From a virus: a stretch of DNA of 47,841 nucleotides. The stretch lies in IMG/VR virus record IMGVR_UViG_3300025892_000035, positions 1-47,841 of that record. One strand, written 5' to 3'. The position numbers and the translations under genes were made by a program. Shown one piece after another: positions 11,809 through 44,367 of the stretch (positions are counted from its first letter, which is position 1; each line of letters begins with the position of its first letter). The notes under the pieces are model-generated. The model searched no databases and was not told the origin of the DNA. It saw nothing but the letters and a program-made list of their open reading frames with translations.

Positions 11809-13074
11809 ATGGCATATGAAGCTTCAGAAATAATGACTGCTACAGCATTGCAGTACAAATCATCTGAATTACAAAAAATAAAAGACTACACTCAGTTACA
11901 AGACTTGATGAAAGCAGGCATAACTGATTCCGATGCTGTTCAATTTGGTAACAGGGCAATCGAACAGGGATTTTTAAAACTAATGGACCCAGACAATCCA
12001 TCAAAGGTTGCTGATATGGCTGTTGGTGTTTCAGCTGCTATAGCAATCAGAAAATATATGAATATTACTTCTGAAAGAGTTATTACATATATGACAGGAA
12101 ATGTTTGGCCGGAAGAAGTTCAAGATTTTCAAGTTAGTGCTTATGGATTTACAGACTATAATTCATCTGATATTGTTGTTAGAAAATTTAGTGATAAAAA
12201 TAAGTTTTACGGCATATCGTTAAAGAAAAAGAAAACAGTCAAAGCTGCGGACCCAACCCTTATCAACAAAGCATTTTCTACTGCATTTGATGGTGAAGAA
12301 TTTGATGATTTAAAAGAAGAACTGGTTGAAACTAGAATAGAGTATTTTGCTAATTTGGTTATTGAGGCGGTAGAAAAAGGAATCATACTCAAAAAAGACA
12401 TAAAGAACTTTGATACTTTAAAGAAAAGAAATAAAAAAGAATTATTTGAAGCTAAACAAAAAGACAAGAATCAATTTGGTAACAAGTCATACATAGACAC
12501 TAAAGGGTATGCAACAGCGGATGACGGATATCTTGCAAGTAATACGAAAGACCCTAAAAGTATGAGGTACTTCGTCAATTCAAAATTATCAGATAAAAGG
12601 AACAATGCTTTGTGGGACGCCTTTGAGAATATTATGGATAAAGGTGGTTCAAAGTTAGCAGAGAATTTAATAAACATAATACTAAAACAAAATTTATTTG
12701 AAGAACTTGAAGCTAAAGAATTAGGAGATAGAAAATTTGATTTTGCTTTAGTAACGGGTATAGCATCTGCTTCTCCATCTGGTATCGTAAGTATTCAAAA
12801 TGGAAAAGTAATATCACTAAAAACAACTTTGTGCGGATTATCAAGAATTGAGAATCAATACAAGGGCGACTATAAAGTTATTCAAGATGTAGAAGCAACT
12901 AACAAGTCATCAGCTGCTAAAATATTTTTTAAGTTGGTAAAGGGTAAGCTTAATTTATTGGACTTAGAAGTTAGATATAAAGGTTCTTTTTCCCCCCAAC
13001 CACAGTTTCAAGGCGGACTAAATAAAGATTTCAAAAGATTATTAGACAAAGAGTGCTCAGGTGGTCCTGGATAA
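11809..13074 (+). CDS. hypothetical protein with possible PD-(D/E)xK-like core
   Basis: 421-residue protein I cannot assign. The start has a strong ribosome site (ACGGAGAGAATT). Residues about 115-150 (SSDIVV, then FYGISLKKKK) resemble the aspartate and x-x-K strands of a restriction-endonuclease fold, but the motif is weak. A C-terminal half contains SPSGIVSIQNG and ends CSGGPG. It is lysine-rich. It could be a nuclease or a virion-associated protein. The hybrid promoter at 11759 is consistent with either early or late expression. Confidence 0.6.
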   Translation: MAYEASEIMTATALQYKSSELQKIKDYTQLQDLMKAGITDSDAVQFGNRAIEQGFLKLMDPDNPSKVADMAVGVSAAIAIRKYMNITSERVITYMTGNVWPEEVQDFQVSAYGFTDYNSSDIVVRKFSDKNKFYGISLKKKKTVKAADPTLINKAFSTAFDGEEFDDLKEELVETRIEYFANLVIEAVEKGIILKKDIKNFDTLKKRNKKELFEAKQKDKNQFGNKSYIDTKGYATADDGYLASNTKDPKSMRYFVNSKLSDKRNNALWDAFENIMDKGGSKLAENLINIILKQNLFEELEAKELGDRKFDFALVTGIASASPSGIVSIQNGKVISLKTTLCGLSRIENQYKGDYKVIQDVEATNKSSAAKIFFKLVKGKLNLLDLEVRYKGSFSPQPQFQGGLNKDFKRLLDKECSGGPG

Positions 13075-13198: not shown

Positions 13199-14428
13199 AT
13201 GCAAGGATTTCAAGACTACATTGTAGAGGATAAAAACACACATCTGGAACATCTGGAAGATGAGATTATCAATAATGGAAGTCAAGGTGCCACAACGGCA
13301 ATTGAGTTTCTAAAATCTATCAAACAAATGTTACAGGGTGGCGAAGGCGCCTCACAGATTTCAGTTAAGTGGGATGGCGCACCTGCTATATTTTGTGGCA
13401 CAAATCCAGAGAACGGCAAGTTCTTTGTTGCAACTAAGTCGTTATTCAACGCAACTCCAAAAATTAATTACACAAACGCAGATATTAAGAGAAACCATGG
13501 CGGTGCATTGGCAGAGAAACTAACTGTCGCACTAAAATATTTTCCAAAGTTAGGTATCAAAGGCATACTACAAGGTGACTTATTGTTCACTAGTGGCGAT
13601 AAGAGTCGTGCAAAAGTTGATGGTAAAGATTCAATCGTCTTTACACCAAACACGATAACATATGCTGTGCCTGTTGTGAAAACAGGACTGTTAGGTAGTT
13701 CTCTATACAAGAGAGTTGACCAGGCAAAGATTGGGATTATATTTCATACATCATACTCTGGCAAAACAATCAAAGGATTGAGTGCAAGTTTTGGTGCAAG
13801 TGTTAGTAATCTAAAAAGTAACAAAGATGTATTCTTTGATGATGCAATGTATAAACAAACGAACCCTGGTTTCACTAGGGCAGAAGCAATTGCGTTTGAT
13901 AACATTATTAGAATGTCAGAAGGTTCTGCGTATAAGGCTGGTAAATTTATTGACAAGATTAAGAAAGACAAAAACACATTATCATTGGGTGTTCAGTTGA
14001 AAACATTTTTCAACACTTACATTAGAGAAGGCACACCAATAACAAATACAAAAGCATTAGCAAATAACTTTGAAGTATATTTCAAAGAGAAGATACAAAA
14101 AGAAATTGATAGTAAGAAACAAGAATCAACTAAACAAAAGTATGAAGAAATTCGTGAAGTCGGTATGAGAATAATTAGGGCAGATAGAGAAGGTCTTTAT
14201 TTTGCCATTGCAACATACATAACGCTTCAGTCTGCAAAGGCTGTATTGATGAAGAAACTAAATAATATACAGAGTATCGGTTCTTTCCTAAGAACAAAGA
14301 ATGGATTTAAAGTTACAAATCCAGAAGGATATGTAGCAATCAAACAAGGCGGTGCTGTAAAACTTGTAGATAGACTAGAATTCAGTCGTGCAAATTTCAA
14401 CATGGCCAAAAACTGGGTAAAAGGATAA
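13199..14428 (+). CDS. ligase-like nucleotidyltransferase, possible capsid cargo
   Basis: 409-residue protein with the order of motifs seen in covalent nucleotidyltransferases (DNA/RNA ligases, capping enzymes). K57-W-D-G60 matches motif I (KxDG). ILQGDLLF near 137-146 resembles motif III with Asp instead of Glu. PEGYV (E376-G377) resembles motif IV, and K388-L motif V. I infer a ligase-like enzyme or an inactive relative; the substrate could be RNA or DNA ends. The N-terminus MQGFQDYIVE|D resembles the T4 capsid-targeting sequence, so it may be packaged. It ends on the ATG of the next gene. Related uncharacterised proteins occur in marine phages. Confidence 0.65.
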   Translation: MQGFQDYIVEDKNTHLEHLEDEIINNGSQGATTAIEFLKSIKQMLQGGEGASQISVKWDGAPAIFCGTNPENGKFFVATKSLFNATPKINYTNADIKRNHGGALAEKLTVALKYFPKLGIKGILQGDLLFTSGDKSRAKVDGKDSIVFTPNTITYAVPVVKTGLLGSSLYKRVDQAKIGIIFHTSYSGKTIKGLSASFGASVSNLKSNKDVFFDDAMYKQTNPGFTRAEAIAFDNIIRMSEGSAYKAGKFIDKIKKDKNTLSLGVQLKTFFNTYIREGTPITNTKALANNFEVYFKEKIQKEIDSKKQESTKQKYEEIREVGMRIIRADREGLYFAIATYITLQSAKAVLMKKLNNIQSIGSFLRTKNGFKVTNPEGYVAIKQGGAVKLVDRLEFSRANFNMAKNWVKG

Positions 14429-14757
14429 TGGCAGAAGAAGAAAAGAAAACTACTACATTTCATCCCGCTGACACAAACGGCGATGGCACAGTAAGTAAAG
14501 AAGAACACCAGATGTATATGGAGTTCAAAAGAAAAGAACTTGAAGATGCGGATGCAATGCGTGATGCACAAAGGACAATGACTTGGTTTGCTTTGGCAGG
14601 ACTATTGTTATATCCATTTGCGGTTGTACTTGCTGTTCTGGCAGGTTTAGATTCGGCAAGTAAGATACTTGGTGATATGGCGGCTACATATTTTGTCGCA
14701 GTTGCTGGTATTGTTGCTGCCTTTTTTGGTTCACAAGCATATAGTAAGAAGAAGTAA
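14428..14757 (+). CDS. EF-hand-like membrane protein
   Basis: 109 residues. A single EF-hand/dockerin-like calcium loop spans D15 to E26 (D15-x-N17-x-D19-G-T21, acidic at position 12). A charged helix of about 20 residues comes next, then two hydrophobic segments at about 49-72 and 82-104, ending in a Lys tail. The loop suggests Ca2+ binding at a membrane face. Its length and two membrane segments would also fit a holin, but nothing proves that. The start overlaps the previous stop and the next gene starts directly after the TAA. Confidence 0.72.
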   Translation: MAEEEKKTTTFHPADTNGDGTVSKEEHQMYMEFKRKELEDADAMRDAQRTMTWFALAGLLLYPFAVVLAVLAGLDSASKILGDMAATYFVAVAGIVAAFFGSQAYSKKK

Positions 14758-16752
14758 ATGAAATCATTTCACACATTCAAAGAATCGATAATTGATATCC
14801 CTAGAAGCACATATGCTCCTATGGTCTTTGATAAAGAGGATACATCTAACCCTGTAATCAAACCATCTGTCATTAAGATGATTGAGGACCAGTTGGCAGA
14901 ATTTGAAAAAGAATATCCTGTGTTGAAATATACTTTGATTGGTTCTATACTTACACACAGATACAGAAATGATGCCGACTTAGACATCAATGTTTTGTTT
15001 GATGTGCCTGTTGAAAAACGAGAAGATGAAAGAGTAAGACTTTCTAAGAAGTATTTGTCTGCAAAGAATCCAGACAACATTCAAGGTAAAGAAATACCTA
15101 ATACAAAACATCCTGTCAACTATTACTTCATCACAGACAAAGAAACTTACGATTCTCAGAACGCTAAGGCTGATGCTGTGTTCGATATTAAGAATCAGAA
15201 GTTTGTCAAACGACCAGAAGATTTCAAGTTCGATATAAATCTATATCTAAAAGACTTTGAAAGAAAAGTACAAGAGATAGATGTTGTCAAAGGCGAACTG
15301 CAAAGAGATATAATTGACTATGATGAATTGTCTGAGTTGAAACCAGGCGAAATAAAGAACCTAGAAAGACGATTGACATCTAAGTTAAATGAGATTGAAA
15401 AGAGTATACAAGATTTAAGTGATATGGGTGATGTCGCTGACGCTGAAAGACGAGATGCGTTTGATAAAGATATGACACCAGACGAAATTAAAACATTTAG
15501 TATTAAGAATAGATTGCCAAAGAATGTAATCTACAAAATGTTAGAGAAATACCATTATCTTACATTCTTAAAAAAGTGTAAGAAAATTTTAGATGATGGC
15601 GAAGTTACTGATGCTGAGATAGATACATTGCGAAAAGAAGAAAATGGTCATAGACCAGTCCAAGAGGCATTAGATAAGACTAGCAAGTTAGTTTTTGCAT
15701 ACGGTAGGTTCAACCCTCCTACTATAGGGCACGATAAACTTATGAGAGAAGTGATTTCACAGGCTAGGAAGAACGGTGCTAATCACATTGTTTATGCTAG
15801 TGCCTCAACAGACAAACGAAAGAACCCACTAGACCAAAACACTAAAATCAAGTTTATGAAGAAGATGTTTCCTCAGAACAAGATTGTCGGCGCTGGTGGC
15901 ACACAAAGAACATTTATGGAAGTGTTGAAGTTCTACGATAAGATGTACGGTGAAATTATTATGATTGCAGGTAGTGACCGTATCAATGAATTTCAAAAAC
16001 TTGCTGACAAGTATAATGGTAAAGACTACAATTACAAATCTATAAAAGTTGTTTCATCTGGCGACAGAGACCCTGATGCAGAAGGTGTTACAGGAATGAG
16101 TGCAAGTAAGATGCGTGAGATGGCAAAAGTAAATGATTTCAAAACATTTAAAACAGGACTTACATCTAATCTTTCTGACAGAGATGCGAAACAATTGTTT
16201 GATGCAGTTAAGAAAGGTATGGGTCTTAAAGAGAGATATGAATCATTTACTGATTTCTTAAACAATGATTTACGAGAAGAATATTATCAAGAGAAAATAT
16301 TCAATGTTGGTGATATGATTGAACATGTTGATGGCTCTACAGGCACAGTCGTTAGACGAGGAACAAACTATGTTTCATATGAGTCTGATGGTCTAGTCAA
16401 GAAGGCATGGTTGTATGATATACAAGAACTTAAAGAAAGTGCGATACAAGACGAACCTAGTGTCTTAGAAACACTTGAAAACGAATTAGGTAGTGTAGAT
16501 GAGTACTTTGAGTTGAATCAAGTTTCGGTCGAGGCGTATGAAATCGGTCAAGATTATGCTCAACACGCTATGAAAATAACACCACATCAACCAGTATTAA
16601 GTTTTAAACTTGCAAATAAGGTAATTGAGCGCAAAGATATTGATAATTTTGCAAATGAAGATAAAATAATAGATAAATATAAGAAACGATACGGAGACCG
16701 CTGGGAAGATGAATTAGAGAAGGCGGTAATACGAATGAAAAAGGAACTATAA
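14758..16752 (+). CDS. multidomain nucleotidyltransferase / NMNAT-like protein, possible capsid cargo
   Basis: 664 residues. The N-terminus MKSFHTFKES resembles the T4 capsid-targeting sequence. Domain 1 (about 35-160) resembles a pol-beta-type nucleotidyltransferase (GS at 62-63, then DADLDI around 72-77). A helical linker of about 140 residues ends VQE|A (301-304). Domain 2 is an HxGH-type adenylyl/cytidylyltransferase with GRFNPPTIGH at 316-325 and SASKMRE at 448-454, like NMN adenylyltransferase. Near 496 the motif SFTDFLNNDLREE resembles an internal targeting sequence, followed by a small KOW-like beta region and a charged helix. A role in NAD synthesis or RNA/protein nucleotidylation is possible. 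Confidence 0.75.
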   Translation: MKSFHTFKESIIDIPRSTYAPMVFDKEDTSNPVIKPSVIKMIEDQLAEFEKEYPVLKYTLIGSILTHRYRNDADLDINVLFDVPVEKREDERVRLSKKYLSAKNPDNIQGKEIPNTKHPVNYYFITDKETYDSQNAKADAVFDIKNQKFVKRPEDFKFDINLYLKDFERKVQEIDVVKGELQRDIIDYDELSELKPGEIKNLERRLTSKLNEIEKSIQDLSDMGDVADAERRDAFDKDMTPDEIKTFSIKNRLPKNVIYKMLEKYHYLTFLKKCKKILDDGEVTDAEIDTLRKEENGHRPVQEALDKTSKLVFAYGRFNPPTIGHDKLMREVISQARKNGANHIVYASASTDKRKNPLDQNTKIKFMKKMFPQNKIVGAGGTQRTFMEVLKFYDKMYGEIIMIAGSDRINEFQKLADKYNGKDYNYKSIKVVSSGDRDPDAEGVTGMSASKMREMAKVNDFKTFKTGLTSNLSDRDAKQLFDAVKKGMGLKERYESFTDFLNNDLREEYYQEKIFNVGDMIEHVDGSTGTVVRRGTNYVSYESDGLVKKAWLYDIQELKESAIQDEPSVLETLENELGSVDEYFELNQVSVEAYEIGQDYAQHAMKITPHQPVLSFKLANKVIERKDIDNFANEDKIIDKYKKRYGDRWEDELEKAVIRMKKEL

Positions 16753-17978
16753 TGGCAAATAATTATACAAAAACAATGCGACAAGCCCTACAAGAGGCGA
16801 GAGATTATAGAGATGTGCAAGAAGGATTCTCTACTGCTCAAATCAAAATGGCATACGGTGTTCTAAACGACCCTCGTTACAAACAAGGCAACTATGATGG
16901 TGCTGTCAAGGCGATTGAAAAGATTGCAAAAGGATTATCAGACCATCCAGATGTTAAAAATGCACTTAAAAGAGCAAACGAAGAATTATTGGACTTACCA
17001 GCGACTGGCGATACCACTACCAGTAACGCTAGTCAAGAGGTCGAACAAGTAGATGAGGCAAGATTTTCAACTGCACAGATTGATGCGTTGAAAAAGGCAT
17101 ATGCGCCTTTGAAAGGAAAGGATAGCTACAAAAGTGCTACTGGAAGCAAAATGAATTTCAATAAATTAAAAAACAAAATGAGTTCATATTCACCATCTCA
17201 CTTGTTGCAACTTTCTACAGCAGATATACCTATGGTGTCTGATGCTGCCAAAGAATTATTAGCGAAAAAAGATAAAAGGTTTTCAGAAGAAGTTGTTGAA
17301 GGCGGACCCCCTGTTGATGGTGGACCAGGTTCGGGTGGTCATAATAAAAAAGGCGCAGGTAGTTCAGGCGATGGTCGAGGCGATTACAAGAAATCTTCAA
17401 AGGCTGCATTGGCGTTGGGAAAATACAAGTCTAAATATCGTCATCTAAAGAATAACCCATTAAAGATTCCTGGCGCTAGTAAACATATGCCAGCAGATAA
17501 ATCTAAAAGAGTTTCTATGAAAAAAACACCTAAGAAATTTGGTGGAGATTATTACGACCAAGAAGATAGAGAAGAATTAGCACATAGAGTAAAATTTCAT
17601 CATCTTGGAGGCAAAAGTTTTGCTGGAAAGCCACCTGCTTGGCAGTTGAAAAAATATGGAATTACTGATGATGGTAAATTAAAGGCAGGCTGGAAACCAG
17701 ACGACCAATTAAAAGAACAAACCGAACTTGATGAGGCTTCAAGATTAAGACCAACAAAAGGTCTTTACAGTATGGCACAAATGAAACAACAAGTTGCAAG
17801 AACAGAAAAAGCATTTAACGAATTTGAACAACATTGTAATTTCATATTTCAAATGGACAGAGATGTTGGTCCAAGTATGAGTGATAACTCTGGAAAATAT
17901 TTTGATGTGCATAGAGCTCTCGATAACGCAAACAAAGAAATCAAAAAGGCATTGTCTGATGCTAAAAAAATAACATAG
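16752..17978 (+). CDS. hypothetical low-complexity phage protein with duplicated FSTAQI module
   Basis: 408 residues, not assigned. The phrase FSTAQI occurs twice (about residues 27 and 103), each directly after a likely prohead-protease-type site (VQE|G and VDE|A). The middle has GGPPVDGGPGSGGHN followed by a basic, Gly/Lys-rich stretch. A late LDE|A site precedes the C-terminal helix. The composition suits a head-internal or core protein cut during maturation. The start overlaps the previous stop as TAATG. Confidence 0.7.
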   Translation: MANNYTKTMRQALQEARDYRDVQEGFSTAQIKMAYGVLNDPRYKQGNYDGAVKAIEKIAKGLSDHPDVKNALKRANEELLDLPATGDTTTSNASQEVEQVDEARFSTAQIDALKKAYAPLKGKDSYKSATGSKMNFNKLKNKMSSYSPSHLLQLSTADIPMVSDAAKELLAKKDKRFSEEVVEGGPPVDGGPGSGGHNKKGAGSSGDGRGDYKKSSKAALALGKYKSKYRHLKNNPLKIPGASKHMPADKSKRVSMKKTPKKFGGDYYDQEDREELAHRVKFHHLGGKSFAGKPPAWQLKKYGITDDGKLKAGWKPDDQLKEQTELDEASRLRPTKGLYSMAQMKQQVARTEKAFNEFEQHCNFIFQMDRDVGPSMSDNSGKYFDVHRALDNANKEIKKALSDAKKIT

Positions 17979-17986
17979 GACCAATT

Positions 17987-18670
17987 ATGAAATTTAAAGA
18001 ACTAAGAGAGGCAACCTTAACTAAAACGCAGATTAAGAAAGTGCATGATAAGGCAGATGATTTGCCTAAGAATGACTTCATCAAACGCTATGGTAAAGAA
18101 GGCGACTCTGTTCGATTTGCTACTGCAACAAAGATGGTCAAGAAAGAACTAGGCATTGAAGATTACGAAGAAGGCTTCAAAAGTGATGCACAAAGAAGAG
18201 CTGCATTTGCAAGTGGTTACAAAGAGAAAGGCAAAAAGAAAAACGAAGGCGGACCTGGTTCGGGACCAAGACACAAAGAAGTAACACTTACTAGAAATGG
18301 TAAAACTAAAACAGTTAAGGGTGTTGCTGCCAAGATTTTCACAGACGCTGGTTGGAAGGTAAAGAAAGAAGAAGTCGAACTTACTGAGGCTGGGCGACCG
18401 GGCGAAGAAGTTGCACAGGGATATGCTAAAAATATTGCAAGAAGGACTGATAGTAATGACCATTTTGGTGCTAGGTCATACATTGCCTTTGTAATAAAAG
18501 ATAAAGAACTTGAGCAATTTTATGATTCTTTAGAAAAGATGCACAGAATGACAAATGGCTCTGGAAATCATGCTGTAAGTTTAAGACAAAAAATGGAACC
18601 AATTTTAAAAGCTAGAGTAAAAAAGAAACTAAGACCAGATATTGGAAAAATATTACTGGACGCACTATAA
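17987..18670 (+). CDS. hypothetical basic phage protein with capsid-targeting-like N-terminus
   Basis: 227 residues. N-terminus MKFKELRE|A, then a lysine-rich helical region, the motif EGGPGSGPRHKE near residue 87, a KTVKGVAAKIFTDAGWKV segment, LTE|A near 125, and a C-terminal helical domain. Unknown function; probably a head-internal or structural protein of the same class as its neighbour. The 18 bases at 18247-18264 encoding part of the Gly-Pro motif recur exactly in the kinase gene at 36157. Confidence 0.68.
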   Translation: MKFKELREATLTKTQIKKVHDKADDLPKNDFIKRYGKEGDSVRFATATKMVKKELGIEDYEEGFKSDAQRRAAFASGYKEKGKKKNEGGPGSGPRHKEVTLTRNGKTKTVKGVAAKIFTDAGWKVKKEEVELTEAGRPGEEVAQGYAKNIARRTDSNDHFGARSYIAFVIKDKELEQFYDSLEKMHRMTNGSGNHAVSLRQKMEPILKARVKKKLRPDIGKILLDAL

Positions 18671-20174: not shown

Positions 20175-20708
20175 ATGAAAAACTATAAAGGTTTTTACAG
20201 AGAGGCAAAGGGTAATCTGCCTCGTATCTATTGTGATATGGATGGAGTCTTAACTGATTTTGTTCTTGCGGCTAAGAAAGCGACAGGACAGAACTGGGAA
20301 GGAATGCGACACGGTCAAGACTGGGAGAGTATTAAAAATACACCTAACTTCTGGTCTAACATGCCTTGGATGAAAGATGGCAAAAGGTTATGGGGATTTA
20401 TAAGCAATTATAACCCTAGTATACTATCTGCTGCTGTTAAGAATAACCAAGACCCAAACTGCAAACCTGGGAAGTTAAGATGGATAAGTGGGAACTTAAA
20501 ACTAAACAATTCTGCAAGAATTAATTTAGTAAATCGAGTTCAAAAACAAGATTACACAATGATTGGACATAGTGGTAAGAGAGAACAAGCCGTATTGATT
20601 GACGATTACCCTAAAAACATTAAAGAATGGACGGCAAAAGGGGGTATTGGTATATTGCATACAAGTGCCTCGAATACTATTCGTCAATTGAAGAAGATTG
20701 GATATTGA
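20175..20708 (+). CDS. HAD-superfamily phosphatase (5'-nucleotidase-like), possible capsid cargo
   Basis: 177 residues. HAD motif I is D21-M-D23-G in YCDMDGVLTDF. A late VLIDDYPKNI segment supplies the motif IV aspartates. The small size and missing large cap fit the 5'(3')-deoxyribonucleotidase / 5'-nucleotidase type, so a nucleotide monophosphate substrate is likely. The N-terminus MKNYKGFYRE|A matches the targeting pattern: removal of ten residues would leave the whole catalytic domain. It is the last gene of the late run. Confidence 0.8.
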   Translation: MKNYKGFYREAKGNLPRIYCDMDGVLTDFVLAAKKATGQNWEGMRHGQDWESIKNTPNFWSNMPWMKDGKRLWGFISNYNPSILSAAVKNNQDPNCKPGKLRWISGNLKLNNSARINLVNRVQKQDYTMIGHSGKREQAVLIDDYPKNIKEWTAKGGIGILHTSASNTIRQLKKIGY

Positions 20709-36067: not shown

Positions 36068-36766
36068 ATGCTAAACTTTAACGACTTTCTCAACAATCAA
36101 GAAGCAATCAACGAAGGCGTCTACGACAAGAATATATTTAAATGTTTTTTCTTGGCAGGCGGACCTGGTTCGGGCAAGTCATGGGTATCTGCAAGGACTC
36201 TCATGGGCCAAGGAATGAAAGTCATCAATAGTGATGATGGTTTTGAAAGATATGCTAAACAGGCAGGACTAGACCTAAAACAAATGGGTGAGTTTACTGC
36301 TGCCCAAACAAAACTTAAAGATAAACTTAGGTCAAGGTCTAAGAGAGGCACAATGTACATGCACCAACATGCCATTGATGGTCGTTTGGGGCTGATAATG
36401 GACTCTACCGCACGAGATACTGCAAGAATCGAATCAGAGGCCTCATCAATGAGATACCTTGGCTATGATACTTACATGGTGTTTGTAAATACGACACTAG
36501 AAGTTGCACTTAAACGAAACGAGCAACGAGCAAGAAGTGTGCCAGAACCAATCGTTATTAACAGTCATGCACAGATACAAAAGAATATTCCTAAACTTCG
36601 TGCTATCTTTGGTTCTAAGAACTTTGTTGAAGTAGATAATAGTGAAGAAAGAGAAGATGTTAATATCAAAGTCTACAAAGAGATTCAAAAGTTAGTCAGA
36701 ACAAAACCAACATCGCCACAAGCAAAGGCGTGGATTCAGGCAGAATTAGCTAAAAAAAGACGCTAA
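36068..36766 (+). CDS. P-loop kinase (zeta-toxin/PNK-like), possible capsid cargo
   Basis: 232 residues. Walker A GGPGSGKS at 31-38; VINSDDGFERYAKQ follows, and GLIMDSTARDTARIE near 110 resembles the DxT/R region of zeta-toxin and polynucleotide-kinase-like enzymes; a lid arginine pair lies in RNEQRARSVPEP. It probably phosphorylates a nucleotide, nucleic acid end or small molecule. The N-terminus MLNFNDFLNNQEAINE|G resembles the capsid-targeting pattern, and it has its own exact late promoter, unusual for a metabolic kinase. Confidence 0.78.
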   Translation: MLNFNDFLNNQEAINEGVYDKNIFKCFFLAGGPGSGKSWVSARTLMGQGMKVINSDDGFERYAKQAGLDLKQMGEFTAAQTKLKDKLRSRSKRGTMYMHQHAIDGRLGLIMDSTARDTARIESEASSMRYLGYDTYMVFVNTTLEVALKRNEQRARSVPEPIVINSHAQIQKNIPKLRAIFGSKNFVEVDNSEEREDVNIKVYKEIQKLVRTKPTSPQAKAWIQAELAKKRR

Positions 36767-43593: not shown

Positions 43594-44367
43594 ATGAGTG
43601 AAGCACTAAACGCTTTGATGAAAAGCAAATTTGAAATGAAAACATTTACACATACTCCTTTGCCAGAGAGTTCGGTAAAAGAAGTGTATACAGAAACAAT
43701 CAACAAGAAACGATTCTATGTAACGCCAGACGGCCATAAGTATCCATCTATCACAACTGTTCTTAGTGGCAGAGCGAAAGAAGGCATCAATGCATGGCGT
43801 GAGAGAGTCGGTGAAGCTGTTGCTAATCAAATAATGAGAACTGCTGCCAAACGAGGTACGGCTGTTCACGAACTTTGTGAAGATTATCTAAACAACAAAG
43901 AACTAGGCAATCAAGAGGTACTACCGCTTGCTATGTTTACTTTATTGAAGCCAGAACTTGACAATATAAATAATATTGTTGCACAAGAAGTTGGTTTGTA
44001 TAGTGATAGATGGGGTATTGCAGGTCGTGTTGACTGTATCGCTGAGTATGATGGCAAACTAACTGTTATTGATTTTAAGACATCCACAAAAGAAAAGAAA
44101 GAAGAATGGATTGAAAACTATTTCATTCAATGTACTGCCTATTGTGAGATGTTTGAAGAAAGATATGGTCGTGCAATCGACCAGATTGCTGTACTAATCG
44201 TCTGTGAAGATGGTGGTGTACAGACTTTTGTGAAAGACAAAAAAGATTATATAGATTTATTGCAACCAGCAATTGATGAATTTTGGGCAGAATACGATAT
44301 GGAATCTGCTCAACCCGTTTTGGGCGAGTCGGCAGAAATGTCAGAACGACTAGTGCCAAGGCGATGA
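43594..44367 (+). CDS. PD-(D/E)xK exonuclease (RecB-like)
   Basis: 257 residues. The nuclease core shows GRVDCIAEYDGKLTVIDFKTS (the Asp and D-x-K pair), an earlier GTAVHELCE helix with His and Glu, and Q in QCTAYCEMF, which is motif III of RecB-type nucleases. It likely processes DNA ends in recombination or host DNA breakdown. Ribosome site GAGGTG. The stop is a few bases before the tmRNA gene. Confidence 0.85.
   Translation: MSEALNALMKSKFEMKTFTHTPLPESSVKEVYTETINKKRFYVTPDGHKYPSITTVLSGRAKEGINAWRERVGEAVANQIMRTAAKRGTAVHELCEDYLNNKELGNQEVLPLAMFTLLKPELDNINNIVAQEVGLYSDRWGIAGRVDCIAEYDGKLTVIDFKTSTKEKKEEWIENYFIQCTAYCEMFEERYGRAIDQIAVLIVCEDGGVQTFVKDKKDYIDLLQPAIDEFWAEYDMESAQPVLGESAEMSERLVPRR

Follow-up and report, generated by a model that had tools for sequence, protein, structure and literature searches.

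The window, i.e., the whole stretch of 47,841 nucleotides that was analysed, is a 47.8-kb linear IMG/VR fragment from a T4-like marine phage, in which genes for DNA polymerase, UvsX, helicase, primase and ribonucleotide reductase are legible. A gene block among these replication genes holds an exact open reading frame of 664 amino acids (14758–16752), the product of which is a predicted head-cargo polyprotein according to its ORF, Pfam and PHROGs assignments. This protein is composed of a targeting-like N-terminus, a pol-beta-type nucleotidyltransferase (NTase), a linker containing VQE|A (the bar marks the predicted cut), an adenylyltransferase of the CoaD/NMNAT fold and a small beta domain, in that order. 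The ORF with all its parts and the genes at 13199–14428, 16752–17978, 20175–20708 and 36068–36766 are encoded on the plus strand. At the far end of the window, ARAGORN predicts a phage tmRNA (44344–44670; tag ANSNQYALAA), the start of which overlaps the end of the ORF at 43594–44367.

Domain architecture of the 664-residue protein

The AlphaFold model of the protein is based on 35 sequences and has a mean pLDDT of 67. The NTase core and the adenylyltransferase are confidently folded, while the stretches with pLDDT below 50 include residues 1–16, 170–187, 234–258, 287–306, 492–512 and 559–621. Three domain boundaries are found about where the original prediction had placed them from the sequence. 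Matches in isolate phages comprise 530 records; among the matches listed, none starts before residue 277, and the best is Pelagibacter phage HTVC008M (family Kyanoviridae).

The N-terminal nine residues (MKSFHTFKE, 14758–14784) resemble a capsid-targeting peptide that ends with Glu, with a predicted cut at FKE9|S10. Here, the assignment relies on the conserved Glu and on the low pLDDT of this end: the 80 ORFs compared contain 42 distinct N-terminal peptides, and in all 42 Glu precedes Ser or Ala and the P3 residue is F, I, L or V.

The first enzyme (residues 10–291, 14785–15630) was delimited from Pfam, the model and the alignment, and consists of a pol-beta-type core (residues 17–155) followed by a helical part. 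Pfam NTP_transf_2 matches residues 45–98 (E 1.3e-4; score 22.7 bits, cut-off 21), and the residues G62, S63, D74 and D76, i.e., the GS...DxD signature of the pol-beta NTase superfamily, are invariant in 30 sequences. Asn121 (15118–15120) is also invariant, at a position where the S-CREM2 family, in an alignment with a probability of only 32%, has an equally invariant E117; the third catalytic carboxylate may have been lost, and the catalytic activity of the predicted NTase is uncertain. At least 594 relatives of the NTase are found in IMG/VR viral contigs, while a tblastn search of isolate phages with the NTase part gave no match at E 0.01. Weak matches of the helical part to STING (E 0.013) were taken as chance.

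The linker (residues 287–309, 15616–15684) contains the predicted inter-enzyme protease site V301 Q302 E303|A304 (15658–15669), identified by comparison of linkers and of stand-alone relatives. A linker with VQE|A at residues 301–304 between two enzyme domains had been proposed from the sequence, and both are recovered: Pfam finds the two domains, Glu303 is in place, and the site is located in the predicted disordered stretch of the AlphaFold model, i.e., it is not buried.

The adenylyltransferase (residues 310–490, 15685–16227) was assigned by VIA-align and by phrog_3041/395. Pfam CTP_transf_like matches residues 314–420 (E 1.5e-4; score 22.4 bits, cut-off 21), and PHROGs cytidyltransferase families cover residues 301–625. 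In VIA-align, applied to residues 308–491, the domain aligns with E. coli CoaD (Z 14.0, rmsd 3.2, 150 residues aligned) and with an archaeal NMNAT (Z 12.9), the NMNAT folds scoring 12.9 and below. The domain carries the motifs TIGH (residues 322–325) and GMSASKMR, and with its [HT]xGH motif and Rossmann-type fold belongs to the CoaD/NMNAT (HIGH) nucleotidylyltransferase superfamily. An HxGH adenylyltransferase had been expected at this position; the fold stood, while the first His of the motif is replaced by Thr. Because the CoaD and NMNAT folds are nearly tied, the CoaD, NadM and NadD rows lying within about 1.5 Z, the name NMN adenylyltransferase is not established for this enzyme.

A second candidate site, L490 K491 E492|R493 (16225–16233), follows the adenylyltransferase. 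Its assignment is based on conservation of [ILV]xE, which is found at the position of E492 in 33 of 34 loci of a close, redundant clade (L198–L231) and is absent from the distant clade. Shortly after this site, an internal targeting-like motif, SFTDFLNN (residues 496–503, 16243–16266), aligns with the beginning of a separately encoded homologue. The resemblance of this motif to the N-terminus of the kinase encoded at 36068, which had been noted earlier, holds: six of eight residues are identical to NFNDFLNN, starting at residue 3 of the kinase, and an equally good 8-mer was found in 3 of 200 shuffled window proteomes.

The small beta domain (residues 515–557, 16300–16428) was identified with PHROGs and the model, in which beta strands are found at residues 520–557; the phrog_4808 match spans residues 497–560 (E 5.4e-5). 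In S-PM2 and S-CAM1 this domain is a separate protein of 91 residues, the start of which (MKDF) aligns with YESF in the window, and SFTDF therefore falls where a once separate protein started. Loci L198–L231 yielded no stand-alone form of the beta domain; the NTase pattern is present in 34 of 34 of these loci and the adenylyltransferase pattern in 33 of 34. According to the model, the remainder of the chain (residues 559–664, 16432–16749) is disordered to residue 621 and ends with C-terminal helices.

Neighbouring genes

Upstream of the ORF is a gene for a DUF6267 protein (13199–14428; Pfam, alignment) with the N-terminus MQGFQDYIVED. Its KWDG (residues 57–60), EG (376–377) and KLVDR (388–392) motifs are invariant in 36 sequences and resemble motifs of covalent nucleotidyltransferases (ligases); the model (pLDDT 72.8) gave no convincing match to a solved structure by Foldseek or profile. 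The interval between this gene and the 664-residue ORF (14428–14757) encodes a small protein that has a stretch resembling an EF hand and probable membrane segments. The large proteins that open the block (11809–13074 in the window; 15459–16793 in the related locus L179) contain D-I-x-x ... SLK patterns that resemble those of PD-(D/E)XK nucleases; the S-SCSM1 protein among them is annotated as a virion protein.

Downstream, the proteins encoded at 16752–17978 and 17987–18670 display several [LIVMF]xE[AG] sites, some directly ahead of repeated modules, e.g., FSTAQI, which follows VQE|G and VDE|A. Both are likely multi-cut cargo or core proteins, as judged from motif positions, with candidate sites after residues 15, 24, 102, 183 and 328 in the first of them. 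Further genes encode an NT5C/HAD-like phosphatase (20175–20708; Pfam match below cut-off) that starts with MKNYKGFYRE|A, and a P-loop kinase (36068–36766; Pfam) that starts with MLNFNDFLNNQEAINE|G; the HTVC008M orthologue of the latter begins MIPFILKE|G.

Separate parts and alternative fusions in relatives

The original prediction held that several cargo-type proteins had been fused into one, and relatives do encode the parts separately. Of the seven relatives examined first, five have a targeting-like peptide at the start of the stand-alone adenylyltransferase (MKKFSDFLSE|A, MKSYKEFLSE|A, MKKFSAFLKE|A, MKRYTNFLSE|A and MKKFSEIIE|A), the exceptions being HTVC008M (MKTLKELL) and C48C1, for which the annotated start is inside the domain. 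Similar starts are seen in S-SCSM1 (MKSFLQFLKE|A) and S-CREM2 (MKNFSSFLTE|A; ORF154, which matches phrog_395/3041). Where these stand-alone relatives have the targeting-like peptide, the window has RPVQE|ALDKTSK. The adenylyltransferase of ACG-2014j has no targeting-like start and also no E|A before strand 1, which indicates that the E|A motif is not needed for the fold. DUF6267 of S-PM2, S-CAM9 and ACG-2014j likewise displays no targeting-like start.

In S-CREM2, ORF156 (L177, 6013–6726) scores as NTP_transf_2 just over the Pfam cut-off. A profile–profile comparison (hhalign) of the NTase family with the ORF156 family gave E 4.7e-4 at a probability of 32%, while the NTase profile against the single ORF156 sequence was not significant (E 0.56). 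From these comparisons, ORF156, called hypothetical in print, is a predicted divergent pol-beta-type NTase near the adenylyltransferase gene. S-CRM01 harbors the adenylyltransferase and the NTase as separate genes in the same order as S-CREM2. Members of the ORF156 family are also seen in Cr30, Maribacter, Lak and other phages.

Fusions with other partners were found as well. A PAP2-like region precedes the NTase in 6 of the 80 loci. A PAP2-type phosphatase domain in front of the NTase was noted in L039, L041, L047, L058, L060, L084 and L091/L191, all from uncultured phages. Pfam PAP2 was above cut-off in all three fusion ORFs scanned, the NTase being below its own cut-off in two. The E|S joint of the NTase is kept in seven PAP2–NTase fusions, in one of them (L091/L191, DLLE|SIIDLPR) without Met at the joint. 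In L042 and L043 the NTase is followed by an internal, in-frame MKTFLEFNE, i.e., a whole targeting-like start.

Placement of the motif at domain joints

The linkers were compared in the best 80 of at least 594 NTase loci, which are related to each other. In 71 of these loci and in the window (72 ORFs) the NTase and the adenylyltransferase are found in one ORF; one locus was dropped, and eight have no adenylyltransferase (six cut by contig ends, two complete). The linkers into the adenylyltransferase comprise 47 distinct sequences of 11–179 residues, and in 42 of these [LIVMF]xE[ADSGN] is found at most 12 residues from strand 1 of the adenylyltransferase, while the remaining five have only KTE|A or KNE|A. 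When the linkers were shuffled (2000 rounds), the motif was found in a mean of 5.1 and a maximum of 13 of 47; after clustering, it was present in 16 of 17 linkers against 2.0 from shuffles. The motif density per 100 residues is 2.38 in linkers and 0.12 in folded parts. Longer linkers contain extra small modules, flanked on both sides by xxE, and for two modules shared with neighbouring cargo proteins, [LIVMFY]xE is found at a constant offset in every cluster (9 of 9 for either module; null expectation 1.67 and 1.20).

Placement of the motif at domain joints across relatives is thus far beyond chance. The objection that Glu-rich linkers yield xxE|A by accident draws on the bare motif being common (9% of internal 19-residue windows) and on [LIVMFY]xE[AGS] being barely enriched at residues 6–24 of the window ORFs (7 of 57 against 5.2 expected), but is highly improbable given the difference between observed and shuffled linkers and the joint absence of peptide and motif in the ACG-2014j adenylyltransferase. 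Enrichment of the bare motif at the N-termini of HTVC008M proteins is weak (20 of 178 against 13.3 expected), and its depletion in folded cargo domains is not significant (3 against 5.84 expected; 15% of shuffles were equally low).

Head protease, capsid precursor and virion data

Peptidase_S77 is encoded in three of the six records searched, i.e., the related contigs G001, G003 and G004, and is absent from the window, which is itself a fragment. In the major capsid precursors of the same three contigs, FLSE|A or FMSE|A closely precedes the conserved mature part; the HTVC008M precursor contains FLGE|I. From this position and the likeness to the 65-residue propeptide of T4, [LM]SE|A would be the capsid maturation site, and the joint motif of the fusions matches it.

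The syntenic block of S-SCSM1, between helicase and primase, contains seven ORFs (89–93, 95 and 97; not 94 and 96) that are annotated as virion proteins. According to the available portions of the proteome reports, the S-SCSM1 adenylyltransferase (ORF91) was found in virions (PMC9602691), and the S-CREM2 virion table lists the adenylyltransferase ORF154 (3 peptides, 11.2%) and ORF156 (6 peptides, 15.2%, named hypothetical) (PMC10665884). The same portions include the authors' own warning that virion-associated enzymes in CsCl preparations may be carried over (PMC9602691, PMC10665884).

Interpretation

Taken together, the 664-residue protein is probably a virion-cargo precursor that is targeted to the head and cut apart by the prohead protease. 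In the proposed mechanism, residues 1–9 would act as a capsid-targeting peptide that carries the whole chain into the prohead core, where a gp21-type prohead protease would cut after Glu9 and free the NTase. A cut after Glu303 would part the NTase from the adenylyltransferase, and the small beta domain may be released by another cut, at Glu492. Inside the head, the enzymes would stay with the phage DNA, which they would accompany into the host. While we infer the targeting, cutting and ejection of this cargo, the predicted architecture, i.e., a head-cargo polyprotein with protease-type joints, is well supported because the parts are separate in relatives, the motif recurs in 42 of 47 linkers, E|S is kept at the PAP2 joint and the linker is disordered in the model. 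As to the role in the host, nucleotide or NAD-type metabolism, or counter-defence, would be a guess.

The proposal may be extended to marine T4-like phages in general, for which we consider it somewhat favoured that the capsid protease is a polyprotein processor: PAP2 phosphatase, NTase, adenylyltransferase and small modules would be made as one chain with one targeting peptide and separated in the prohead, the cut site being a reusable joint for shuffling cargo modules.

The alternative that survives best is an ordinary bi- or trifunctional enzyme that its N-terminus directs to the head and that is left uncut between the domains; the joint motif would then be a remnant of the old targeting peptide of the adenylyltransferase. 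Fusions of metabolic enzymes are common, the joint of the S-PM2 DUF6267–adenylyltransferase fusion lacks [LIVMF]xE, and VQE, like FKE, falls outside the strict L/I-x-E of T4. A remnant would, however, be expected to decay, yet the site is kept in nearly all distinct linkers, which are otherwise variable in length; furthermore, inserted modules come with a site at either end and the PAP2–NTase joint retains its E|S. We consider this alternative unlikely.

Less probable still, with only a slight chance in our view, is that the enzymes are early or middle proteins acting in the infected cell, where the MKSFxxF N-termini and the xxE|A joints serve otherwise, e.g., for docking or as substrates of a different protease. 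The location among replication genes and the carry-over considered by the authors of the proteome studies (in the portions available; PMC10665884, PMC9602691) would fit such a role, but not the virion annotation of the seven syntenic S-SCSM1 ORFs nor the match of the joint motif to the predicted capsid maturation site.

Relation to known head-delivered proteins

The proposed processing of the 664-residue polyprotein is best compared with that of the internal proteins of T4, as described in the accessible part of PMC9026906: an N-terminal targeting peptide of 10–19 residues is removed after Glu, and the gp21 cleavage motif is L/I-x-E. As in Alt and IPI–III, the window protein has a short N-terminal peptide ending with xxE, and related contigs encode Peptidase_S77. 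Unlike in T4, a single targeting-like peptide heads a chain of several enzymes, and the joints between the domains carry additional sites; for T4, the account of multi-site cutting concerns the breakdown of core proteins and the trimming of both ends of Alt, not a cut between enzymes (PMC9026906).

The adenylyltransferases reported in S-SCSM1 and S-CREM2 virions share the targeting-like N-terminus with the window protein, while the NTase is a separate gene in S-CREM2 and was not seen in S-SCSM1. The available portions of the two reports make no mention of targeting peptides or joint sites (PMC9602691, PMC10665884).

Another parallel is provided by the polyvalent proteins of phages and conjugative elements, where, as proposed here, several unlike domains in one protein are delivered together with DNA. 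In the accessible text, the authors draw a comparison with viral polyproteins and include pol-beta NTases in the domain repertoire of polyvalent proteins (PMC5512222). Polyvalent proteins, as described there, have embedded peptidase domains, whereas Pfam gave no peptidase match in the 664-residue protein and the proposed cutter is a separate head protease. The P1 proteins DarA, DarB and DdrB and the ejection proteins of the giant phage SPN3US are also delivered from the head, carry N-terminal targeting sequences or propeptides and are processed; the accessible parts of these accounts describe removal of propeptides and no case in which the head protease parts two enzymes (PMC9024508, PMC5694885, PMC10052503). 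Searches of open-licence full texts in PubMed Central, most hits being judged by their listing, gave no paper recognisable as a description of such fused, protease-jointed head cargo.

Implications

If the proposed reading is correct, a group of "hypothetical" proteins of abundant marine phages would become readable as a cargo system, in which a targeting-like peptide together with [LIVF]xE joints would predict both the proteins that are carried in the head and the positions at which they are cut. Proteolysis in the head would then serve not only maturation but also the production of individual enzymes from a single precursor, and the question of what marine phages inject into their hosts becomes directly testable, including with published virion spectra.
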